A stretch of 64,000 bases of DNA from assembly GCA_913055805.1 (NCBI GenBank), contig CAJXLF010000002.1, positions 372,001 through 436,000 of the forward strand, given 5' to 3'. The notes beneath the pieces were generated by a model. It ran no database searches, was not told where the DNA came from, and worked only from the letters and a program-made list of their open reading frames with translations. A program made the translations under genes and the position numbers. The stretch comes from an uncultured Salinisphaerales bacterium. Its GTDB lineage: Bacteria; Pseudomonadota; Gammaproteobacteria; Nevskiales; CAJXLF01. This document shows positions 10,709 through 19,195 of the stretch, piece after piece (the first letter of the stretch is position 1; each line of letters begins with the position of its first letter).

Positions 10709-11899
10709 CTAGAAGGCGTATTCCGCCTGCAGCCATAGACGCCGCGTGTCCACGCCGAAGGTATCCTTCGAATAGTCTGCGAACTTGGCCAGCAGCTTGA
10801 ATTTCTCATTCACCGGGTAAACCGCCAGCAAGTCGATTTCGTCACCATAATCCGCGCCCCCGTTATCGGCGCTGAAATCGTGGTAAACCGCCTTGAGCAA
10901 GGTCTTGCCCAACTTGGTGCCGACAACGGCGTACAGATCCTGAACGCCGTCAGCCGGCGTTGCCAGGAACAGATCGGCCCAGCCCTGGAAAGCGTGGGCG
11001 GTGGCGAGCGGCGTCATGAAAGCATAGGTGCCATCACCACCCAGGGATTCATAACCCGCTCCGGCAACCACAACACCGATGGGCATGGAGAAGTCGATCA
11101 GGAAATAATCGGATTCCTGGCCATCAGGCGCATCCGCGTAATCATCTTGGCGGGCGTATTCCAGCGTGTAGCCGAGCTGACTGAAGGTACCGGCCGCTCG
11201 CAGACCGAGGGTGCGGCTGTCCGCCTCTGTCTCGAAATCGAGAAGATAGGCATAGCCGGTCAGGGTCAGGTTCTCAAAACCCGTGTACTGGGTATTGAAC
11301 AGATGCGACGACATGTCGCGATCCTGGAAGAAAATACCATGCGCCTCATCGACATAGACGTAGGTCATCTTGGTGTCTTCGAACCAGGTGTTGCTCAGAT
11401 TCAGGGCGTCGTAGGTCTGCTCGTTCTGACGCCAGCCAACATTACCGATAAAGCGGGCATTATCAAGAATGATTCTCTGACGACCCACGATTGCCGTTGC
11501 GTTTTCAATCCTGTATCTCAGGTAGGCCTGATTGAGCTCCTCACTGGTCGGATCCGCGATCGTGGCGAATGCCGTGTGGCCATTGGTGGCGTCCAGCGAC
11601 GGAGGTCCGCTGTTATATTCCTCGTCGCCTCCGATTGCGAAAGTACCTTCAAACTCGACAAAGGCATCGAATCCCCTGTACTCGGCGGTGGCGTAACCCA
11701 GGCGTGCGCGCAGGGTCAATGCATCCGCATCCTCCTTGCCTTCCTGTTCTGCGGACTCGTAACGCAGGCGTGTATTAAGTGTCGGCTTGCCGCCGGTCAT
11801 CGCTGATTCGAGTGTTCCGCTTTCTCCGGCAGCATGTAATGAAGGCGGCAAACACATTACGGCCAGCGCCGTAAGCGTGATCTTCCCAAAGTTTTTCAA
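10709..11899 (-). CDS. Porin-like outer-membrane beta-barrel protein
   Basis: 396 residues from a TTG at 11899, chosen because GGAG sits 7 bases upstream and the following residues (LKNFGKITLTALAVMCLPPSLHAAGES) form a signal peptide. The frame is open 30 codons further up with a GTG at 11989, but that stretch is the regulatory leader. The mature protein is built of alternating strands with aromatic girdles (LNTRLRYESAEQEG, FDAFVEFEGTF, LRYRIENATAIVGRQRI, GYTLEYARQDDY) and ends in RRLWLQAEYAF, a classic C-terminal Phe barrel signal. It resembles alginate-export or phosphate-selective type porins; the substrate is unknown. It is a separate transcription unit with its own sigma-54 type promoter and structured leader. 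Confidence 0.85.
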   Translation of the reverse strand: MKNFGKITLTALAVMCLPPSLHAAGESGTLESAMTGGKPTLNTRLRYESAEQEGKEDADALTLRARLGYATAEYRGFDAFVEFEGTFAIGGDEEYNSGPPSLDATNGHTAFATIADPTSEELNQAYLRYRIENATAIVGRQRIILDNARFIGNVGWRQNEQTYDALNLSNTWFEDTKMTYVYVDEAHGIFFQDRDMSSHLFNTQYTGFENLTLTGYAYLLDFETEADSRTLGLRAAGTFSQLGYTLEYARQDDYADAPDGQESDYFLIDFSMPIGVVVAGAGYESLGGDGTYAFMTPLATAHAFQGWADLFLATPADGVQDLYAVVGTKLGKTLLKAVYHDFSADNGGADYGDEIDLLAVYPVNEKFKLLAKFADYSKDTFGVDTRRLWLQAEYAF

Positions 11900-11907
11900 A
11901 AGATTTC

Positions 11908-11973
11908 TCCCTGTGACCGGCAACTCGCGAACACCGCTCGCCTCTCCACACACAGGGATGGACGCCGTTGCCC
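11908..11973 (-). promoter_or_regulatory. Leader of porin gene: A1/G4 hexaloop and SD-sequestering stem
   Basis: On the minus strand GGGC-AACGGC-GTCC (11973-11960) is a small stem with a six-base loop whose first base is A and fourth is G, the ANTAR recognition pattern. Immediately downstream TCCCTGTG (11958-11951) can pair with CACAGGGA (11915-11908), which contains the GGGA part of the ribosome-binding site of the porin gene. Control could therefore be at translation initiation as well as transcription. Confidence 0.55.
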
Positions 11974-12015
11974 TAGGACTACTATTCACTGCGACCCCGG
12001 CCCCCTTCTTTGGGT

Positions 12016-12036
12016 GCGGTGATTTTCAACCACCGC
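12016..12036 (-). promoter_or_regulatory. 5' hairpin of the porin leader
   Basis: Minus strand GCGGTG-gttgaaaat-CACCGC is a perfect 6-bp stem between the sigma-54 type promoter (12061-12076) and the hexaloop hairpin. The stretches GCGGTGG and ACCCAAAG recur in the leader of the ANTAR-1 gene, so it may be a shared leader element. Confidence 0.5.
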
Positions 12037-12060
12037 CGGTCAGGATCTCGGGCATACAAA

Positions 12061-12076
12061 AGCAATCGGCATGCCA
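12061..12076 (-). promoter_or_regulatory. Sigma-54 type (-24/-12) promoter for the porin gene
   Basis: Minus strand TGGCATGCCGATTGCT matches the RpoN consensus TGGCAYR-N4-TTGCW, with GG and GC exactly 10 bases apart. It lies about 160 bases upstream of the TTG start, leaving room for the structured leader. Confidence 0.75.
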
Positions 12077-12122
12077 ATAAATATTCAATGCCGCAGAAAG
12101 AATACAACCCGTTGTTATATAT

Positions 12123-12149
12123 AAAAAAAACCCCGGCTTTCGCCGGGGT
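12123..12149 (-). terminator. Terminator of the DUF3034-to-OmpA operon
   Basis: Minus strand ACCCCGGC-GAAA-GCCGGGGT then eight T residues: an 8-9 bp GC stem with a GNRA-type loop. It lies about 100 bases after the OmpA-cupredoxin stop and separates that operon from the porin gene. Confidence 0.92.
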
Positions 12150-12248
12150 CGGAATCAAGTACCTACTGCACTATTCCCAAGCAGCGATACCGTCCATGGC
12201 CTCAAAGACGGTCGCGAGAGAAACATCCTTATTGCCGGCAAGCCGGCC

Positions 12249-13181
12249 TCAGCTGACAACGACCTTGCCGCTCATACGGCTGCCGTGAATAGCGCATACG
12301 TAGTCATATTCACCCGGCGCGTCGAAGTTTCTGCTGTACGCCGCGCCATGACGCAGCCGTGCGCTTTTGGCATCGTCGAATTGCACAATGTGATTGGAAC
12401 CACCATTGTTGGTCCAGACCACGGTCGTGCCGGCGTCAACTTCCAGAATGGCCGGTTCGAAAGCGTTATCTACAATCGATACCTGACTACCGCTGACTGC
12501 AGCCGGTGCCGCGGCCATTGCGGGCGCTGCCGGTGCGGGACTGGCGTGTGCATGATCCATGGGCGCTGCAGCCGCAGGTGCTGCACTCACCATGCCTGTG
12601 CCGAGAATGATCAGCTCGACGCGGCGATTCAGTGCGCGCCCGGCGTCAGTGTCGTTGTCCGACACCGGCACGCTTTCGCCATAACCCTTCATACTCATGC
12701 GTGTCGCCGGCACCCCTTGCAGCGTCAGATACTTCACTACGCTGGCCACTCGGCGGGCAGACAGTGACTGATTGTATTCAGCGGAACCGACACTGTCGGT
12801 GTGCCCCGCCACTTCAAAGGTAATGCCCGGCGCCTGCAACAGGGCAGCAGCCACCAGATCCAGCAACGCCTTGTCTTCCGGCGTCAGCGTCGAAGAGTTA
12901 AATGCGAAATGCAGTCCCTGCAGGACTATCTTGTCGCCTGTCTTGCAACCTTTCAGATTCGCGGATTGACCGCTTAGCGTTGGCAACACGCAAGGTGTTT
13001 TCGCCACGGGTGCGGGCGCCGGCGCCGGCTCGGGAATCTTGTCATAGACCTCGCTGGTCGCGCGCCATGCCAGTTTCGGATCACCCGGCGGTCGCAGCCC
13101 GGTGGTCGACAGCGTACAGCCAGTGACCTGGACGGCGACGGCCGCCAACACCACTGCCTTGAACATCGAAAAACGTTTCAT
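12249..13181 (-). CDS. Lipoprotein with OmpA domain fused to a copper-binding cupredoxin
   Basis: 310 residues. Signal peptide with lipobox VTGC (Cys22), then a segment (CTLSTTGLRPP, RATSEVYDKIPEP) nearly identical to the start of the small lipoprotein upstream. OmpA-like peptidoglycan-binding domain at about 78-195 (FNSSTLTPEDKALLD, GHTDSVGSAEYNQSLSARR, NRRVEL). An Ala/Pro/His linker follows, then a plastocyanin-like domain at about 230-310 (FEPAILEVDAGTTVVWTN, NHIVQF, YVCAIHGSRM). The type 1 copper ligands would be His264, Cys296, His299 and Met303. It is probably anchored in the outer membrane and held to peptidoglycan, presenting an electron-transfer copper site in the periplasm. It is the last gene of its operon. 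Confidence 0.9.
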   Translation of the reverse strand: MKRFSMFKAVVLAAVAVQVTGCTLSTTGLRPPGDPKLAWRATSEVYDKIPEPAPAPAPVAKTPCVLPTLSGQSANLKGCKTGDKIVLQGLHFAFNSSTLTPEDKALLDLVAAALLQAPGITFEVAGHTDSVGSAEYNQSLSARRVASVVKYLTLQGVPATRMSMKGYGESVPVSDNDTDAGRALNRRVELIILGTGMVSAAPAAAAPMDHAHASPAPAAPAMAAAPAAVSGSQVSIVDNAFEPAILEVDAGTTVVWTNNGGSNHIVQFDDAKSARLRHGAAYSRNFDAPGEYDYVCAIHGSRMSGKVVVS

Positions 13182-13289
13182 AAGCTTCTACTCCCTAACT
13201 ATTAATGTGTATTCCCCAGTCCCGGGATTCACGTCACTACCCGATCAGCAGTGACACAAATTCGATTGACCCCTGGTATGCACAGCCTG

Positions 13290-13475
13290 TTAATGGGCGG
13301 TTGCGGGTTTGGATTGACTTGCCTCGGGCACCTTGTCATAGACCTCGCTCGTTGCCCGTGTCGCCAGACTGTGATCAGTAGGGGCGCGCAGTCCCGTCGT
13401 GGACAATGTGCAGGCAATACCCGGGACCGAAATAGCCACCAGCAGCATGACCTTGAGCATCAATGAACCTTTCAT
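13290..13475 (-). CDS. Small lipoprotein, paralogue of the OmpA-cupredoxin N-terminus
   Basis: 61 residues. Signal peptide LKVMLLVAISVPGIAC with lipobox Cys22, then CTLSTTGLRAPTDH and RATSEVYDKVPEA, matching the first 30 mature residues of the next gene's product (CTLSTTGLRPPGDP, RATSEVYDKIPEP). The protein stops soon after. GGGAG lies 10 bases before the ATG. It is likely co-transcribed with its neighbours. The repeated segment may be a conserved interaction tag in the outer membrane; no family recognised. Confidence 0.75.
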   Translation of the reverse strand: MKGSLMLKVMLLVAISVPGIACTLSTTGLRAPTDHSLATRATSEVYDKVPEASQSKPATAH

Positions 13476-13513
13476 AAGCAGTACTCCCTGAGTTTGTTGA
13501 GTGGATTCTCCAG

Positions 13514-13690
13514 TCAGTTGTTAAAAGCGCCGGCACAATGGCCCGCGTCATAAACGTAGGTAATCGAGTTCTGGCCGCCGCAGTAGCCCTGCAAAGGCTG
13601 CAGGCCCACTGCTGACAACGTGCTGCATCCCGTCCCGGCGCAGATGAGCAGGACCAGACCCGCCAGGTAAATTTTCCGAATGTCTTGCAT
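13514..13690 (-). CDS. Small Cys-containing lipoprotein
   Basis: 58 residues, read directly from the minus strand: MQDIRKIYLAGLVLLIC, then AGTGCSTLSAVGLQPLQGY and further to a TGA at 13514. Lipobox AGTGC puts the lipidated Cys at residue 22. The mature part is about 37 residues, has two more cysteines (CGG and HCAG) that could form a disulphide, and includes SITYVYDAG. Its start (CSTLSAVGL) and the YVYD stretch loosely resemble the two neighbouring lipoproteins. GGGGAG precedes the ATG by 8 bases. Function unknown. Confidence 0.68.
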   Translation of the reverse strand: MQDIRKIYLAGLVLLICAGTGCSTLSAVGLQPLQGYCGGQNSITYVYDAGHCAGAFNN

Positions 13691-13735
13691 CTTCCCTACT
13701 CCCCGAGGCTCCCGGCCTCTTTCTGCGGACGGACA

Positions 13736-13882
13736 TCACAGGCTGGGTACCAGATCGCTGACGATCGCCACCGTCCCGAGCAACATCAGCCCGGCCCAGC
13801 CCAGCATTCCGAGCATCAGCAGTCCGGCCATACGCAAACTGCCGCCCATATCCGTAGTCATTGCCTGATTCGCCCTGTTCAT
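13736..13882 (-). CDS. Small single-span membrane protein
   Basis: 48 residues from ATG 13882 (SD CAGGGAGATCAAGCG) to TGA 13736. The sequence has a short polar N-terminus (MNRANQAMTTDMGG) and one long hydrophobic stretch, MAGLLMLGMLGWAGLMLLG followed by TVAIV, rich in Met, Leu and Gly. It lies 30 bases after the PepSY-type gene and before the tiny lipoprotein, in the same orientation, so it probably belongs to the operon. It could be a membrane subunit of the PepSY protein. No family recognised. Confidence 0.62.
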   Translation of the reverse strand: MNRANQAMTTDMGGSLRMAGLLMLGMLGWAGLMLLGTVAIVSDLVPSL

Positions 13883-13912
13883 CGCTTGATCTCCCTGTAT
13901 GGCTGTCCGTTT

Positions 13913-14842
13913 TCAGGCATTGGCTGCCTGACGACGACGACGGCTGCTACGCCACAGCATCCAGATACCACTGATGCTCAGCACCAGTGCCGCTACGCCA
14001 ACCATGTTGATGACCCATGGCCCGACAGAACCGAACAAGCGGCCGCTGTGAGCGTCGATAAGCACCTGTTCAATGGCAATGCTGGGGCGTGCATGGGGCA
14101 GGACTTTCTCCTGCTCAGGCGCCGGCAGGGCCTGTGCTTTCGACCAGCTGACCTCCATACCCGGAGGTAACGGCACCCAGTCAAGTCCATCCCGGGTGAC
14201 GAAAATATCCAGATCCTGCACAGCAACCAGACTGCCGTTATCCTCATTCACGAGACCGATACGGCGAATACTGGCGACCGGCAGGGTGTAGTCACTGAGC
14301 TGGTCCACCACACTGCCATCGGCATTCAGGATGACCAGGCGGTCCGCCGCCGCCACATAGAGCAGTTCCTGCCCACCCAGTTGCTGGCTGACAAAGCCCA
14401 GAGGGGCGGGAATCGCCTGATCCAGCGGCTGGCCATCCAGCACCGTGTTCTCGACCGTAGCGGCCAGCCAGTGACTATTGGCGCTGAAACCGCTCTTGGG
14501 CGCTTCGGCATGCAATCCATACATGGCTATCAACCAGGGCCAGTCGATCCGGTCGGCATCCAGCCCGAGGCTGACGCTCTGATTCAGGAGAATGCCGCTG
14601 GTGCCCAACCAGCCCATGAAAATGAAGGCAAATAACCCGGCCCGTTTGTGCCACTCACGCAGAGTGACCTGCAGATTCCTGGCACGTGTCTTCGAGGCCA
14701 GACGCCGCAGCCTGACCGGACGTATATGGATGACCTGCAACCGCCACGCGGTCACCCGGGATGAGAACCGGCGATTGCCGGGCTGATCAATCAGGACTTC
14801 CTGATTCTGCACTCTTGCCAGCTGTTCAGACATTTCGCTCAC
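13913..14842 (-). CDS. PepSY-associated transmembrane protein
   Basis: 309 residues. A cytoplasmic basic N-terminus of about 60 residues leads to REWHKRAGLFAFIFMGWLGTSGILL (first span, about 62-88), a periplasmic domain of about 180 residues, then WVINMVGVAALVLSISGIWMLW (second span) and an Arg-rich tail. The LREWHKRAG segment before the first span is typical of PepSY_TM proteins, which often accompany FMN-binding or reductase proteins and may carry electrons across the inner membrane through haem. Its ATG overlaps the stop of the FMN-binding gene by 4 bases, indicating tight coupling. Confidence 0.78.
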   Translation of the reverse strand: MSEMSEQLARVQNQEVLIDQPGNRRFSSRVTAWRLQVIHIRPVRLRRLASKTRARNLQVTLREWHKRAGLFAFIFMGWLGTSGILLNQSVSLGLDADRIDWPWLIAMYGLHAEAPKSGFSANSHWLAATVENTVLDGQPLDQAIPAPLGFVSQQLGGQELLYVAAADRLVILNADGSVVDQLSDYTLPVASIRRIGLVNEDNGSLVAVQDLDIFVTRDGLDWVPLPPGMEVSWSKAQALPAPEQEKVLPHARPSIAIEQVLIDAHSGRLFGSVGPWVINMVGVAALVLSISGIWMLWRSSRRRRQAANA

Positions 14843-15360
14843 CTGCTTGCCAGTTGGTCAAAGGTCAGTGCCGTACGCGCCATACGCTCCATCATCTTCA
14901 CGGAGAGTGTTGCGCCGGAAATATTGTCGACCTCACGGTCCAGCGCATTTCCTGCCGCACGGGCGCCCTCGAGTTGGTGCAGGAAAGCCGGCTCGGCCAC
15001 CTGTTCACCCCGCGACTCGCGGTAGATCAGCACGCGGGCCACTTCCACCATCCCGTTGTTGACGACAAAACCGCAGGTGGTCGGCACATAGCCTTCCTTG
15101 CCGATGTCGTCGAAAATCCAGGCGGTTCTGTCGCCGGCCCGCCAGTAACGCAGGCGTGCCTGTGGAAAGGATCGGCCAAATACCTGGCTCACCTCGGACT
15201 GTTTGCCGCCATCCAGGTTGAGCACTTCGGGTGCCGGCGGATTGGTGCCAAATACTTCGGCCAGAAAGGCCTCAGGTGTCTGAAACGTCTTGTAGAGCTC
15301 AAAGGCCATGGCACTACCCAGACTCAACACCATCATTAATACAAAAATCGCTGCTTTCAT
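14839..15360 (-). CDS. FMN-binding domain protein (NqrC/RnfG-like SGAT motif)
   Basis: 173 residues. Signal peptide MKAAIFVLMMVLSLGSAMA, then a compact domain ending in DNISGATLSV. The D-x-x-S-G-A-T pattern is the flavinylation site of FMN-binding domains: ApbE attaches FMN to the threonine, here Thr151. No apbE is in the window. Such proteins are periplasmic one-domain flavoproteins that pass electrons. It overlaps the PepSY gene by 4 bases, a pairing that suggests transfer of electrons between the membrane protein and the periplasmic flavin. Confidence 0.86.
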   Translation of the reverse strand: MKAAIFVLMMVLSLGSAMAFELYKTFQTPEAFLAEVFGTNPPAPEVLNLDGGKQSEVSQVFGRSFPQARLRYWRAGDRTAWIFDDIGKEGYVPTTCGFVVNNGMVEVARVLIYRESRGEQVAEPAFLHQLEGARAAGNALDREVDNISGATLSVKMMERMARTALTFDQLASR

Positions 15361-15386
15361 GATTTCACTGTTATTGCTTTAAAGGG

Positions 15387-15413
15387 CCCCATTGGGCACA
15401 AGGCCCAATGGGG
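15387..15413 (-). repeat. Perfect 11-bp inverted repeat in the operon
   Basis: CCCCATTGGGC (15387-15397) and GCCCAATGGGG (15403-15413) separated by 5 bases, between the truncated haemoglobin and FMN-binding genes. No long T tract follows on the minus strand, so it looks more like an mRNA-stabilising or processing hairpin than a full terminator. A second, longer inverted repeat (15422-15433 with 15476-15487, 11 of 12 matching) sits just after the haemoglobin stop. Confidence 0.65.
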
Positions 15414-15495
15414 AACCACGGGTTGCTGAACAAGGAGGGGCAGAGTCACGGGAGGAGAGAGTTCCCATTCCTGATTTGTCCAGCAACGACACGAC

Positions 15496-15987
15496 TTACC
15501 TCGTCACGATGACGCGTTCGAAGGGTGCGAGCGCCGCAATCAGCTGATTGCATACCGAATAGGGGGTATTCACCCGCTCGCAGGCGTTGTAGGCCGCTTC
15601 CACCACGGCATTGAACTCGGTGAGTGTGATGCCCAGATCGGCATGCGCCGCCTCCATGCTGGCGCCCTGATACTCGACGTTACCGCCAAGCACCATCTGC
15701 TCCAGCTGGGTGTTCAGGAATATCTGGCGATCAACGTTGCCGAATTCCCGGAAGATGTGATTGATGCGCGTGTCCAGCATGATGTAGTGGAACAACGCCT
15801 CAACCCAGGCGTGCACGCCGGCTTCACCACCGAATTCTTCCAGTGCATCGGCACTGAGACCCGGATAGGTCGGCATCTGCCCATGGGGCATGGCGTTTTT
15901 GTCAGCTGCCTGCACCTGCATGGAAATAACCATCAGCAGGGTTGCGGAAAACAGCATCAGATACGAACGTAGATTTAACAGTTTCAT
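15496..15987 (-). CDS. Secreted group 1 truncated haemoglobin
   Basis: 163 residues. Signal peptide to about residue 27 (ATLLMVISMQVQAADK). The rest is a two-on-two globin: FGGEAGVHAWVEALFHYIM, DTRINHIFREFG, QLEQMVLGGNVEYQGASMEAAHADLGIT. Expected haem residues are His115 as proximal ligand (in AAHADLGI) and Tyr68 at the B10 position. Most truncated haemoglobins are cytoplasmic; a signal peptide places this one in the periplasm, where it might bind NO or O2. It follows the DUF3034 gene by 45 bases. Confidence 0.86.
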   Translation of the reverse strand: MKLLNLRSYLMLFSATLLMVISMQVQAADKNAMPHGQMPTYPGLSADALEEFGGEAGVHAWVEALFHYIMLDTRINHIFREFGNVDRQIFLNTQLEQMVLGGNVEYQGASMEAAHADLGITLTEFNAVVEAAYNACERVNTPYSVCNQLIAALAPFERVIVTR

Positions 15988-16032
15988 AAGACTCTCCTAA
16001 TCTTCAGGTGAGTAAATTCCATTCAGACCAGC

Positions 16033-17316
16033 TTAGAAATCAGCCTGAAGCGAGATGTAGTAGCCGTGCTGTTCCGGCGTAATCGTGATGTCGCCGAGCA
16101 TGGCGTAGGCCATAGTGATGGACAGGTTCTTGCTCGGGAAAAACGCCACGAATACGTCGTACCAGTCGCTTTCCTTCTGTTCGAGGGTGCGGCCCAGTGC
16201 CGGCGTCAGGCCGGTACCGCCCAGGCTCGAGGCCGTCTGGTTGCCCAGATAGATATCCTTCAGGTTCTCGCCGTGCTCCTGGTACTCGAAGCCGATGGCC
16301 GTACCCTTGTTCAACAGGTAGGCAATCGAGCCCTCAAGACGCAGCTCCTTGTCGTTGCCGTCGGGCCCACCGAAACCGGTCAGACCGGTCTGGTTGGCCG
16401 AGGTGTAACGGGCCGTGACATTGACCAGGGTGTTGATGGGGAAGAAGATCTTGGTGGCCGCCACATAGGCTTCCCAGTCTTCCGATTCCGCGGCGCCGAG
16501 CGTTCTCAGCAATTCCTCGTTCTCGTTCTTCTTCCAGAAACCACCGATGGCTACCTGCGGAATCAGATTATCCGAATCGTAGATGGCCTCACCGAAGAGC
16601 CTCAGCTTGACGCCGAAGGACTCCATGGTGATGGTGGTGTTGAAGGGGTCGATACCCTGATTGCCGCCACCGCCGACCAGACCGCCAGTGGCATCGGATA
16701 CTAGCCCATTCAGGTCAAGCGTATCTCCCAGACCCGTAGGCAGTGAGCCATTGCCGGACAGCGCATTGGTCAGATCCGTCAGCTCCAGGCCTTGCCCACC
16801 CAGTGCATCGGTCAAACCACTAAGCGCATCCGGGTTGGAGCCGCTCAGGCCACCCAGGACACTCCCTACAATATCGCCCACCGAACCCGTGGCGTTGCTC
16901 GGGTCATTGAGCAGACCGTTGACCGAAACACCCCCCAGGGTGTCAGTCAGCAGACCCACAGTGTTGAAGGTACTGCCGGTGGTCAGATTGGACCGGGCAT
17001 AGGAAATTTCCAGACGGTCGTAGAAACCGACACGACCCGCCAGAGTGTTCAGGTGATAGTTGGCCAGATCCACATAGGTATACGACAGGTTGCCGTTGAT
17101 ACCGTCGCGGGTTTCATAGCCCGAAATAGTGGCCCAGGGTGTGATACCGCCACCGCCGGCGCCATCCACCATACCGACACCGCCGGTGGCCAGTACCTTG
17201 CCGTTGTTGTACCAGCTCGATGCAGCCATGGCATTACCGCTGGAAAACATGGCGCAGGCTGCGGCCACACCCAGCAGTCGCATAGCTCCAGACCTGTAGT
17301 TTCTTGATCGTTTCAT
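16033..17316 (-). CDS. DUF3034 family outer-membrane protein
   Basis: 427 residues from ATG 17316 (tandem ATGATG; GGGAG lies 6 bases before the second). Signal peptide ends at GNAMA (about residue 31). The mature start SSWYNNGKVLATGGVGMVDGAGGGGITPWA is the DUF3034 hallmark (given as SSWYNNGKVLATGGVGMV). Barrel-like strands follow, ending in HGYYISLQADF, a C-terminal Phe signal for outer-membrane insertion. Residues about 120-224 are a Gly/Leu/Asp/Asn-rich low-complexity insertion with repeats such as GLTDALGG and DLTNALSG. The domain's function is not known to me. It is the first gene of a sigma-54 type operon with a double attenuator leader. Confidence 0.82.
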   Translation of the reverse strand: MKRSRNYRSGAMRLLGVAAACAMFSSGNAMAASSWYNNGKVLATGGVGMVDGAGGGGITPWATISGYETRDGINGNLSYTYVDLANYHLNTLAGRVGFYDRLEISYARSNLTTGSTFNTVGLLTDTLGGVSVNGLLNDPSNATGSVGDIVGSVLGGLSGSNPDALSGLTDALGGQGLELTDLTNALSGNGSLPTGLGDTLDLNGLVSDATGGLVGGGGNQGIDPFNTTITMESFGVKLRLFGEAIYDSDNLIPQVAIGGFWKKNENEELLRTLGAAESEDWEAYVAATKIFFPINTLVNVTARYTSANQTGLTGFGGPDGNDKELRLEGSIAYLLNKGTAIGFEYQEHGENLKDIYLGNQTASSLGGTGLTPALGRTLEQKESDWYDVFVAFFPSKNLSITMAYAMLGDITITPEQHGYYISLQADF

Positions 17317-17340
17317 CATTTGCTCCCTTGATGGATCTCC

Positions 17341-17386
17341 AAAAAAAAACGCCACACCCGCGATTTGCGGATGCGGCGCCATTGCC
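17341..17386 (-). terminator. Attenuator unit 2 before DUF3034: hexaloop hairpin and terminator
   Basis: Minus strand GGC-AATGGC-GCC (17386-17375) has a six-base loop with A at 1 and G at 4. Its 3' arm is part of the terminator stem formed by GCGCCGCATCCGC and GCGGGTGTGGCG, followed by nine T residues. The two structures are mutually exclusive, the layout of an ANTAR antiterminator. It ends 25 bases before the DUF3034 start. Confidence 0.75.
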
Positions 17387-17414
17387 TTAAATACCGTTCT
17401 TAATGTCTGAAATG

Positions 17415-17463
17415 AAAACGCCCCGCTCACTGCTTTCGCTCATGAGAAGGGCGTCGTTGCCTT
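17415..17463 (-). terminator. Attenuator unit 1 before DUF3034: hexaloop hairpin and terminator
   Basis: Minus strand AAGGC-AACGAC-GCCCTT (17463-17447) is a hairpin with an A1/G4 six-base loop. Its 3' arm overlaps the 5' arm of a long stem ending GGGGCGTTTT (17424-17415). The unit has the same order as the one before the ANTAR-1 gene. Confidence 0.75.
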
Positions 17464-17490
17464 ACCAATGTTGTACCGATTGCAACCCGA

Positions 17491-17504
17491 CTCCGTCATT
17501 GGAG
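17491..17504 (-). promoter_or_regulatory. Upstream hexaloop hairpin (P1-like) of the DUF3034 leader
   Basis: Minus strand CTCC-AATGAC-GGAG: a perfect 4-bp stem around a six-base loop with A at position 1 and G at 4. With the hairpin at 17447-17463 it gives the dual-hexaloop (P1/P2) arrangement recognised by ANTAR proteins, although the linker here is about 27 bases and contains another small stem. Confidence 0.6.
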
Positions 17505-17555
17505 GTCTGCCACCGCATGGCAACAGATGGGTTATTGACCAGTCAGCTTCACTCT

Positions 17556-17571
17556 AGCAAGCTGCGTGCCA
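17556..17571 (-). promoter_or_regulatory. Sigma-54 type promoter for the DUF3034 operon
   Basis: Minus strand TGGCACGCAGCTTGCT is an exact match to the RpoN consensus TGGCACG-N4-TTGCW. It lies just before the ANTAR-1 stop region on the same strand and about 240 bases upstream of DUF3034, so the attenuator leader is transcribed from it. Confidence 0.85.
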
Positions 17572-17587
17572 ACTCCTTTTTTGCCTG

Positions 17588-18199
17588 CTAGGACAAGCTC
17601 TTGAGCAGCTTGTCCTTGCCCGCTCCACCCTTGCGCACATGCGCTGCCAGAATGGCCTTGCTGACATCGACGATGCGCTGACTGCGATTCATGGCCGTTG
17701 TGCGCAGACTGCTGTAGGCCGCCTGTTCACTCATGCCCTGCTCTTCCATGAGCAGGCATTTGGCCTGCTCGATGTAACGATGATCGGACAGTTCCTGCTG
17801 AACATTCTCCAGCTCATCCTGCAACAATCGCTGATTGATGAAGTACATCGACGCCACTTCGATCAGCGAATGCAGCAACAGCGGCGTCAGGGCCTCGACC
17901 ACATGCAGGATGACCCCGGATTGCATGGCTGAAATCACCATCTCGTCGCTGCCGCGGCGCGTGAACATCACCACCGGACAACGCCGGGAAATATCTATAT
18001 CAGACAGCGTTGCCAATAACTCCGGTGTGGGTTCATCAGCTTCAATCACCACGATTTCCGGATTCAGGAATTTCATCCTGTCTTTCAACGCACCGGTTAC
18101 CGGCACGACTTCCAGCAATGTGTAGCCCGCTGCTGCCAGCCCCGTCTCCAGACGGGTCCAGTCATCATGACAAGCCTGCACTACAAGCACACGCTTCAC
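17588..18199 (-). CDS. ANTAR-domain RNA-binding antiterminator 1
   Basis: 203 residues from the GTG at 18199, which has GGAGGG about 10 bases upstream and aligns with its paralogue; an ATG at 18217 or GTG at 18241 would extend it. Residues 1-120 are a receiver-like domain (VKRVLVVQACHDDWTRLE, MFTRRGSDEMVISAMQSG). The C-terminal about 65 residues are the ANTAR three-helix domain (YIEQAKCLLMEEQGMSEQAAYSSLRTTAMNRSQRIVDVSKAILAA). ANTAR proteins bind paired hexaloop RNA hairpins and prevent termination. The usual phosphoacceptor Asp is Glu53 and the acidic pair is missing, so it is probably not controlled by phosphorylation. Its own leader carries two attenuator units, suggesting autoregulation. 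Confidence 0.88.
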   Translation of the reverse strand: MKRVLVVQACHDDWTRLETGLAAAGYTLLEVVPVTGALKDRMKFLNPEIVVIEADEPTPELLATLSDIDISRRCPVVMFTRRGSDEMVISAMQSGVILHVVEALTPLLLHSLIEVASMYFINQRLLQDELENVQQELSDHRYIEQAKCLLMEEQGMSEQAAYSSLRTTAMNRSQRIVDVSKAILAAHVRKGGAGKDKLLKSLS

Positions 18200-18252
18200 T
18201 GTCGATTCCCTCCCCATTACTCTGCGACTGTCCTTGTGCACGGCTGTTGTTC

Positions 18253-18301
18253 AAAAAAAAACGCCTCCCCCATGCCATGCACGGAAGAGGCGTCATTGCC
18301 T
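18253..18301 (-). terminator. Attenuator unit 2 before ANTAR-1
   Basis: Minus strand AGGC-AATGAC-GCCT (18301-18288): A1/G4 hexaloop whose 3' arm overlaps a terminator stem (ACGCCTCTTCC with GGGGGAGGCGT) followed by nine T residues. It lies about 50 bases upstream of the GTG start. Confidence 0.78.
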
Positions 18302-18310
18302 ATGCACAAT

Positions 18311-18358
18311 AAAAAACGCCCTGCTCACGGCCAGGCCGTTGAGTAGGGCGTCGTTGCC
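18311..18358 (-). terminator. Attenuator unit 1 before ANTAR-1
   Basis: Minus strand GGC-AACGAC-GCC (18358-18347): A1/G4 hexaloop overlapping a long terminator stem, ACGCCCTACTCAACGGC against GCCGTGAGCAGGGCGT, then six T residues. It is nearly identical in layout to unit 1 of the DUF3034 leader. Confidence 0.78.
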
Positions 18359-18362
18359 AGAT

Positions 18363-18440
18363 CACCTGTATGCGGTTATTGCATACCCGACTTTGGGTGG
18401 CGATGGCCCGGGCCACCGCACTCAGTCATAACCGCAATCT
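18363..18440 (-). promoter_or_regulatory. Structured 5' part of the ANTAR-1 leader
   Basis: Minus strand: an outer stem GCGGTTAT / ATAACCGC encloses an inner stem GGTGGC / GCCACC. Overlapping the 3' arm, GTATGC-AATAACC-GCATAC forms a competing 6-bp hairpin. The words GCGGTGG and AGTCGGGT are shared with the DUF3034 leader, pointing to common descent. I could not find a clear A1/G4 hexaloop here. Confidence 0.5.
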
Positions 18441-18461
18441 CTTGGATTCCGTCATGAGTAC

Positions 18462-18477
18462 AGCAAAGCGCATGCCA
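18462..18477 (-). promoter_or_regulatory. Sigma-54 type promoter for ANTAR-1
   Basis: Minus strand TGGCATGCGCTTTGCT fits TGGCAYR-N4-TTGCW with GG-N10-GC spacing. It is about 260 bases upstream of ANTAR-1, preceding the two attenuator units. Confidence 0.78.
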
Positions 18478-18546
18478 ACTCTTCGAAGGTTGGCACCCAG
18501 GGAATACATTAGCTCTTTGATTTTTAAATGATTAATTTAAATATAA

Positions 18547-19134
18547 TCACTTTGATCGGGCAGCCAGCAGGGCGCGCGAAACATCCACCAACCGCTGGCT
18601 ACGATGCATGGCCGTGCTGCGTAACGAGGCATATGCCTCGTTTTCGCTCAGCCCCTCTTCCTCCATCAGAAAGTACTTGGCCTGCTCGATGTATCGCTGC
18701 TCAACCAGCTTGTTCTGCAACGTTTCCAGTTCATCCTGCAGCAGATGCTGGTTAAGGTAATACAGGGCGGCGACTTCGATCAGCGAGTGCAGCAAAAGCG
18801 GCGTCAGGGCCTCGACCACGTGCAGAACCACACCCAGCTGCATGGCCGTCATCACCATGCGGTCGCTGCCCCTGCGGGTAAACAACACAACCGGACAGCC
18901 ACTGGCATGTTCGACCTGGGCCAGCTGTTCCAGAACCTGCATTCGCGGCTCATCAGCCTCGGCCACCAGCATATCCGGCTGCAAAAGCTTCACCCGATCC
19001 TCGATGCGGGCCGTCGCAGGCAAAATATCCAGCAGACTGTAACCGGCTTCCACCAAACCGCTTTCCAGCCGCGTCCAGTCATCATGGCAAGCCTGCACCA
19101 TCAGCACACGCTTAACTCCCGCCCTGTATAGCAT
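18547..19134 (-). CDS. ANTAR-domain RNA-binding antiterminator 2
   Basis: 195 residues from ATG 19134 (GGAG six bases upstream). It is a clear paralogue of ANTAR-1 over its full length: VKRVLMVQACHDDWTRLE, VVLFTRRGSDRMVMTAMQ, VVEALTPLLLHSLIEVAALY and a C-terminal ANTAR domain (YIEQAKYFLMEEEGLSENEAYASLRSTAMHRSQRLVDVSRALLAA). The phosphoacceptor position is Glu59 instead of Asp. Unlike ANTAR-1 it has only a short leader, about 45 bases, with no terminator, so it may be made whenever its promoter is active and then open the downstream attenuators. Confidence 0.88.
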   Translation of the reverse strand: MLYRAGVKRVLMVQACHDDWTRLESGLVEAGYSLLDILPATARIEDRVKLLQPDMLVAEADEPRMQVLEQLAQVEHASGCPVVLFTRRGSDRMVMTAMQLGVVLHVVEALTPLLLHSLIEVAALYYLNQHLLQDELETLQNKLVEQRYIEQAKYFLMEEEGLSENEAYASLRSTAMHRSQRLVDVSRALLAARSK

Positions 19135-19177
19135 TTCGAACTCCGTTGATGGGTTTCGTTGCCTTTTATTTATTGCA

Positions 19178-19195
19178 GCGCAATATACGTGCCGG
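19178..19195 (-). promoter_or_regulatory. Sigma-54 type promoter for ANTAR-2
   Basis: Minus strand CCGGCACGTATATTGCGC: GG-N10-GC spacing and GGCACG-N4-TTGC agree with the RpoN consensus, with only the first T replaced by C. It is about 46 bases upstream of the ATG. Confidence 0.68.

Follow-up and report, generated by a model that had tools for sequence, protein, structure and literature searches.

A putative sigma-54- and ANTAR-controlled envelope redox module associated with nitrate assimilation in an uncultured Salinisphaerales bacterium

Introduction

Control of bacterial nas genes by NtrC together with NasT/NasR is already known (PMC5424462). Operons such as Klebsiella nasF and Paracoccus nasABGHC combine Ntr control with ANTAR antitermination at hexaloops in their leaders, and their targets are reductases. 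In Bradyrhizobium, the operon narK-bjgb-flp-nasC depends on NasT, and Bjgb-Flp protects against nitric oxide (NO) formed in nitrate assimilation (PMC4724949). EutV dual-hexaloop antiterminators contain two six-base loops with A at position 1 and G at position 4 (A1/G4), and their second hairpin (P2) is mutually exclusive with the terminator (PMC3369931). Extracytosolic electron-transfer clusters of the flavinylated PepSY type encode PepSY_TM, a flavinylated periplasmic protein and ApbE (PMC8238504, PMC11334425). Here we have analyzed a 64-kb stretch of DNA (the window; 64,000 nucleotides of contig CAJXLF010000002.1, assembly GCA_913055805.1) from an uncultured Salinisphaerales bacterium (Nevskiales in GTDB, a group living mostly in soil and water), which harbors between positions 10,709 and 19,195 two ANTAR genes, an eight-gene operon encoding envelope redox proteins, and a porin gene.

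The promoter and leader architecture of this locus, its gene set, its conservation and its linkage to nas genes are apparent from sequence and comparison. The whole is best explained, with a probability of about 0.55, as an accessory envelope redox module of the nitrate-assimilation regulon.

Results

All genes of the locus, like all features described below, are located on the minus strand; their order is ANTAR-2, ANTAR-1, the eight-gene operon (17319 down to 12249) headed by the gene for a DUF3034 protein, a terminator, and the porin gene. Sigma-54 promoters were scored as GG-N10-GC in the context TTGGCACG-N4-TTGCW with a maximum of 13. Sites were identified upstream of the DUF3034 operon (17556..17572, TTGGCACGCAGCTTGCT, 13/13), ANTAR-1 (18462..18478, TTGGCATGCGCTTTGCT, 12/13) and the porin gene (12061..12077, TTGGCATGCCGATTGCT, 12/13). 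These are the sole sites reaching at least 12/13 on both strands of the window, the expectation from Markov shuffles being 0.26; the bare GG-N10-GC is very frequent, with 443 and 630 matches on the two strands. A preliminary description of this DNA had proposed four strict -24/-12 promoters. Those of ANTAR-1, the DUF3034 operon and the porin gene were borne out, whereas the candidate site upstream of ANTAR-2 (19179..19195, CCGGCACGTATATTGCG) is weak with 10/13, a score reached by 19 sites in the window, and has no attenuator behind it.

Relatives comprised genomes of the same order, where no other genome analyzed belongs to the family of the window, plus named genomes. A sigma-54 site of at least 11/13 was present in 37 of 40 DUF3034 leaders, the window's included, and shuffles reached the observed score in about 1.2 of 40; for all three window promoters the site is conserved in orthologues. 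Transcription of the module is most probably driven by sigma-54. Two sigma-54 (rpoN) genes were found in the host genome (G000, C7:109197 and C2:283794); a dedicated RpoN for part of the envelope regulon is possible.

The leaders of ANTAR-1, the DUF3034 operon and the porin gene each contain a first hexaloop hairpin (P1) and at least one more, with A1 and G4 in every loop. In the ANTAR-1 leader, P1 (ACCC-AAAGTC-GGGT, 18385..18398) is followed by P2 (GGC-AACGAC-GCC) overlapping terminator T1 (18311..18358) and by a second such hexaloop (AGGC-AATGAC-GCCT) overlapping terminator T2 (18256..18301). The DUF3034 leader likewise carries P1 (CTCC-AATGAC-GGAG, 17491..17504), P2 (GGC-AACGAC-GCC) overlapping T1 (17414..17461) and a second hexaloop (GGC-AATGGC-GCC) overlapping T2 (17341..17386). 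In both, the later hexaloops overlap the 5' arm of intrinsic terminators, twice in tandem. This pattern occurred exactly four times in the 3.4-Mb genome, in these two leaders only, and 0 times in the reversed control. Upon folding, the terminator form was more stable than the enforced P1+P2 form by 11.6 kcal/mol (ANTAR-1) and 16.4 kcal/mol (DUF3034), and off would therefore be the default state; this is consistent with default termination that is overcome by a bound protein.

The porin leader contains a dual hexaloop (CCC-AAAGAA-GGG / GGGC-AACGGC-GTCC, 11960..12014) without a clear poly-U terminator, and its downstream hairpin covers the Shine-Dalgarno sequence. It probably does not act as a transcription terminator, and control may therefore be translational in this case. 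Six-base A1/G4 loops had been noticed in these three leaders before, with most of them said to overlap terminators; the overlap holds for the ANTAR-1 and DUF3034 leaders but is not clear for the porin leader.

A scan against Rfam at the gathering threshold returned only a tRNA, and no curated family covers the leaders at that threshold. Twenty-six leaders of the Nevskiales type could be aligned, comprising P1 of about 8 bp with a loop of mostly AAAGNN or AATGNN, P2 with the sequence GGAC-AYCGAC-GTCC, and then a terminator the 5' arm of which is the 3' arm of P2, so that both are mutually exclusive. Among these relatives A1 was found in 23 (P1) and 24 (P2) leaders, G4 in 25 (P1) and 23 (P2). 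Covariation in P1 and P2 amounted to 27 cells changed on both sides as compared to 11.5 in shuffles; for the terminator, 13 double-sided compensatory cells were counted as compared to 3.0, and in both cases 0 of 500 shuffles matched. Related sequences can inflate such counts; the two signals collapsed when slid by one column, a control which retains relatedness.

A covariance model (R1), built only from relatives, detected more such leaders upstream of OmpA-cytochrome c, porin, NasS and NirB genes and of an operon encoding a tetratricopeptide repeat (TPR) protein. Its top match in the host genome was P2/T1 of the ANTAR-1 leader, with a marginal score (14.1 bits, E 4.4) which is probably due to the longer linker between P1 and P2 (26-29 nt in the window leaders, 4-9 nt in most relatives). 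It is very likely that the leaders of ANTAR-1 and the DUF3034 operon are subject to ANTAR antitermination, by predicted binding to the hexaloops.

The DUF3034 leaders of Zhongshania (L040, L045, L048, L050, L051, L057) share the blocks GCACCCTTAA-AAGACGGAT and ACGCGGGGC, perhaps another regulatory element.

The module was found in Nevskiales (Solimonas, Hydrocarboniphaga, Nevskia, Panacagrimonas, Stenotrophobium, Sinimarinibacterium and others) and in Zhongshania and Spongiibacter. Nearly all complete loci encode DUF3034, a truncated hemoglobin (trHb), a protein binding flavin mononucleotide (FMN) and PepSY_TM, with OmpA-cupredoxin or OmpA-cytochrome c nearby; the loci were found through the hemoglobin, so its constancy is biased. 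ApbE lies within the cluster in most Nevskiales. In a concatenated tree, the window was placed beside Zhongshania and Spongiibacter (support 0.88) among Nevskiales sequences; this placement fits the common gene order and suggests a transfer of the module out of Nevskiales.

Genes located next to the module in many relatives are nasS, nasT, nirB, nirD, nasC and one for a nitrate/nitrite transporter. The assimilatory nitrate reductase NasC was encoded in 41 of 41 genomes with the module and in 26 of 44 others (85 genomes of the order; Fisher 1e-6, not corrected for phylogeny). Module and NasC shared a contig in 25 genomes and lay within 30 kb of each other in 24 of these, as compared to about 1.5% expected, and an ANTAR gene was located within 30 kb of the module in 30 of 41. 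The host carries a gene cluster for a major facilitator superfamily transporter, NirB, NirD, ferredoxin reductase and NasC on another contig; it has two sigma-54 promoters, and good NtrC-like palindromes, TGCAGTTTTCTGGTGCA and TGCACTATTGCGGTGCA, lie upstream. Judged from these comparisons, the module very probably belongs to the nitrate-assimilation regulon. The preliminary description had guessed at a link to nitrogen, which is now largely supported by NasC co-occurrence, nas linkage and the sigma-54 promoters of the host nasC-nirBD cluster; its view of an RpoN- and ANTAR-controlled envelope redox regulon gains support from the comparative data as well. It had named conservation of the gene set and the leaders as a check; both, and the promoter too, are kept in relatives.

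Some further observations concern nas and module loci. The leader of the host nas cluster (L084, ~222-233) contains a single hexaloop, CCC-AACGAG-GGG, over the Shine-Dalgarno sequence, where ANTAR translational control is possible. A four-gene operon for secreted TPR-type proteins (~600, 950, 230 and 100 aa; the last with LMPWKEE) adjoins the module in L020 (382-6062), L016 (15005-19452) and many named loci, and has its own dual-hexaloop leader in several relatives. The DUF3034-trHb pair is duplicated in tandem in Sinimarinibacterium CAU 1509 and present in two copies about 12 kb apart in Nevskiales STE_114 (L034 / L054 and L017). In another family of the order, a lone DUF3034-trHb pair (L015, 8452-9783; 33-35% identical) lies beside rpoD, integrase and restriction-type genes; this neighborhood, which includes housekeeping genes, gave no functional clue.

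ANTAR-2 (18547..19134; Pfam ANTAR 56.7 bits) is a NasT-like protein with a degenerate receiver and an ANTAR domain, and its paralogue ANTAR-1 (17588..18241) is 65% identical over the aligned region; these are the only two ANTAR genes encoded in the host genome. Both are about 33-38% identical to NasT of the relatives. The acidic receiver sites, VDDD/VDDH and IDVD in relatives, read VQAC and Glu for Asp in both window proteins. A NasS protein (PF13379) was not matched in the host genome, which is 95.7% complete, whereas relatives have NasS beside the module. With NasS gone, the input signal of the host has probably changed.

The composition of the eight-gene envelope operon, as given in the preliminary description, agrees with domain matches and protein features. 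The DUF3034 protein (16033..17319; Pfam 263.6 bits) was modeled, with moderate confidence, as an outer-membrane β-barrel of about 12 strands (predicted local distance difference test, pLDDT, 62) which resembles FapF, OmpG and other porins. Its residues ~122-222 form a low-complexity insertion, which is resembled by a secreted Gly-rich LPTG-repeat protein near the module in L016 (14106-14771). The secreted group-1 trHb (15496..15987) has a weak Pfam score on its own (18.8 bits, cut-off 21) and is firm as a family; its profile matched HbN at 6e-16, assigning it to the HbN-class group-1 trHb (2/2 globin). The proximal His F8 is the invariant His115, and two divergent members lack both residues of a Cys pair, which is what a periplasmic disulfide would predict. 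By alignment, Phe66 is located at B10 and replaces the Tyr of O2-stabilizing trHb1, as well as the Tyr B10 of HbN-like NO dioxygenases. The region between the trHb and FMN genes (15361-15495) contains a strong hairpin, CCCCATTGGGC-CTTGT-GCCCAATGGGG, which lacks a T-run and may serve in the processing or stability of the mRNA.

The periplasmic FMN-binding protein (14839..15360) contains DNISGAT, and the ApbE flavinylation motif Dxx[ST]GA[ST] was found in 10 of 10 aligned sequences; two ApbE genes of the host genome lie outside the cluster. The inner-membrane protein PepSY_TM (13913..14842; PF03929, 46.5 bits) has a periplasmic beta domain and two predicted transmembrane (TM) helices, each with an invariant His nearby (His65 and His265); no more than these two invariant His residues lie in TM-flanking motifs, whereas FoxB has two His pairs. 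When the PepSY model was used for a fold search, the matches were generic beta-propellers only, none of them below E 0.001. Three small proteins follow: a 48-aa single-TM protein (13736..13882), a 58-aa lipoprotein with a lipobox in its sequence (13514..13690) and a 61-aa lipoprotein (13290..13475). The last gene encodes a lipoprotein in which OmpA is fused to a type-1 copper cupredoxin (12249..13181) retaining the residues His, Cys, His and Met that typify a type-1 copper site; some relatives carry a cytochrome c domain on this OmpA scaffold in place of the cupredoxin. The lipidated N-terminus of the OmpA-cupredoxin, CTLSTTGLR-P-D--LA-RATSEVYDK-PE, is also that of the 61-aa lipoprotein, and one may therefore derive from the other. 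A strong intrinsic terminator (~12124..12150) ends the operon, and the gene for the Alginate_exp/Opr-like porin (10709..11902) follows.

Discussion

We propose that RNA polymerase with RpoN starts transcription, probably activated by NtrC under nitrogen limitation, and that the leader terminators would stop the transcript by default. When active, an ANTAR protein would bind the two A1/G4 hexaloops and hold P2, the 3' arm of which is the 5' arm of the terminator, leading to readthrough; ANTAR-1, encoded behind the same switch, would reinforce it. PepSY_TM may pass electrons from quinol or a cytoplasmic pool over the inner membrane to the covalently flavinylated FMN protein, from which they might reach the periplasmic hemoglobin and a peptidoglycan-anchored carrier with type-1 copper (or cytochrome c), beside the outer-membrane barrel and the porin. 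That the products form an electron relay seems rather probable. Their likeliest use would be the turnover of NO and related reactive nitrogen arising from nitrite during nitrate assimilation. NO/nitrite chemistry as the purpose of the module is a tentative assignment, and the evidence does not separate NO, nitrite and nitrate. A broader idea, equally speculative, is that bacterial nitrate assimilation regularly includes an envelope-spanning chain, not described before and made up of PepSY heme, covalent FMN, secreted hemoglobin, the peptidoglycan-anchored copper or cytochrome carrier and the outer-membrane barrel, which detoxifies or converts NO/nitrite outside the cytoplasm, and which is rewired here to a NasS-free ANTAR pair with degenerate receivers.

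A number of observations weigh against an NO-related module of the nitrate-assimilation regulon. In Zhongshania and Spongiibacter, which do have an ANTAR gene, the promoter is retained and the attenuator is missing; for Zhongshania, loss of the attenuator through a missing ANTAR protein was rejected because the gene is present. NtrC-like sites are strong at the host's own nas/nirB genes, but weak and modestly enriched upstream of the module. Nitrate sensing in the host would have to proceed without NasS and with degenerate receivers. The P1-P2 linker of 26-29 nt in the window leaders exceeds the 5-12 nt of EutV targets in E. faecalis. Phe at B10 of the trHb weakens a reading as a classical NO dioxygenase.

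Within the same regulon, the PepSY/FMN/copper chain could instead serve the reductases of nitrate and nitrite as a periplasmic reductase or supplier of metal (iron, copper), with the hemoglobin as heme or oxygen partner. PepSY-type flavinylated clusters are mostly tied to iron reduction and uptake (PMC8238504) and a cupredoxin is encoded in the operon; however, the conserved set comes without a siderophore receptor or metal transporter, and the hemoglobin, subject to the search bias mentioned above, is always there. We regard such a metal supply as unlikely, and give even less credit to an uptake module in which nitrate, nitrite or organic nitrogen crosses the outer membrane through the DUF3034 barrel and the porin and the redox proteins are secondary. 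Two outer-membrane barrels are indeed under the same control in a regulon linked with nitrate transport, but the redox proteins are the most constant partners and many relatives have no porin gene near the module. An ordinary cluster of unrelated envelope genes with promoter-like matches, as the abundance of GG-N10-GC alone might suggest, is refuted by the comparative data, since genes, promoter, leader and covariation are conserved over many genera; we give it practically no weight.

A further alternative is compatible with the proposed redox module: the host regulon may have ceased to sense nitrate, the twin ANTAR proteins being constitutive or under another partner and nitrogen limitation through RpoN being the only input. 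The NasS family is absent from the host genome, and the receiver residues (Q-A-C, Glu) are changed in both paralogues and not in relatives; on the other hand, a divergent or missing NasS is possible in a genome that is 95.7% complete, and the intact attenuators suggest that regulation persists. A loss of nitrate sensing is conceivable, though we hold the opposite to be somewhat more plausible.

The usual picture of nitrate assimilation is cytoplasmic; a conserved redox module of the periplasm and outer membrane that shares its two inputs, nitrogen limitation and ANTAR readthrough, would add an unexplored compartment. The proposal would give the DUF3034 family and a secreted hemoglobin a role, and the leaders are a natural set of attenuators on which the recognition of two hairpins by ANTAR proteins can be studied. 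The site of NO handling in assimilation becomes directly testable in cultured Solimonas, Hydrocarboniphaga and Zhongshania.

This kind of control logic is known; the literature searched contains no description of its target module. No paper was found there on the module, on a periplasmic hemoglobin in a NasT regulon or on a role of DUF3034, subscription papers lying mostly outside the search, and the preliminary description, too, named no described system of this composition. The locus shares Ntr control and leader hexaloops with the NasS-NasT/NasR operons, and NasST adjoins the module in relatives; it differs from them by its envelope redox targets, by two ANTAR proteins without NasS, and by an ANTAR gene that is itself attenuated. 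With the EutV targets it has in common the two A1/G4 hexaloops and the exclusion of P2 and terminator; it departs from them by its longer P1-P2 linker and by a second attenuator in tandem. PepSY_TM, a flavinylated periplasmic protein and ApbE connect it to the extracytosolic electron-transfer clusters, which in turn carry DUF2271/DUF4198 and iron links; the main text of PMC8238504 mentions neither hemoglobin nor DUF3034. In function, the closest precedent is the Bradyrhizobium operon (PMC4724949), in which a hemoglobin and a flavoprotein are co-expressed with nitrate assimilation under NasT. There, a cytoplasmic single-domain globin and a flavoprotein of other families are produced, whereas the module described here combines a secreted trHb1, a periplasmic protein with covalent FMN, PepSY_TM and outer-membrane components.

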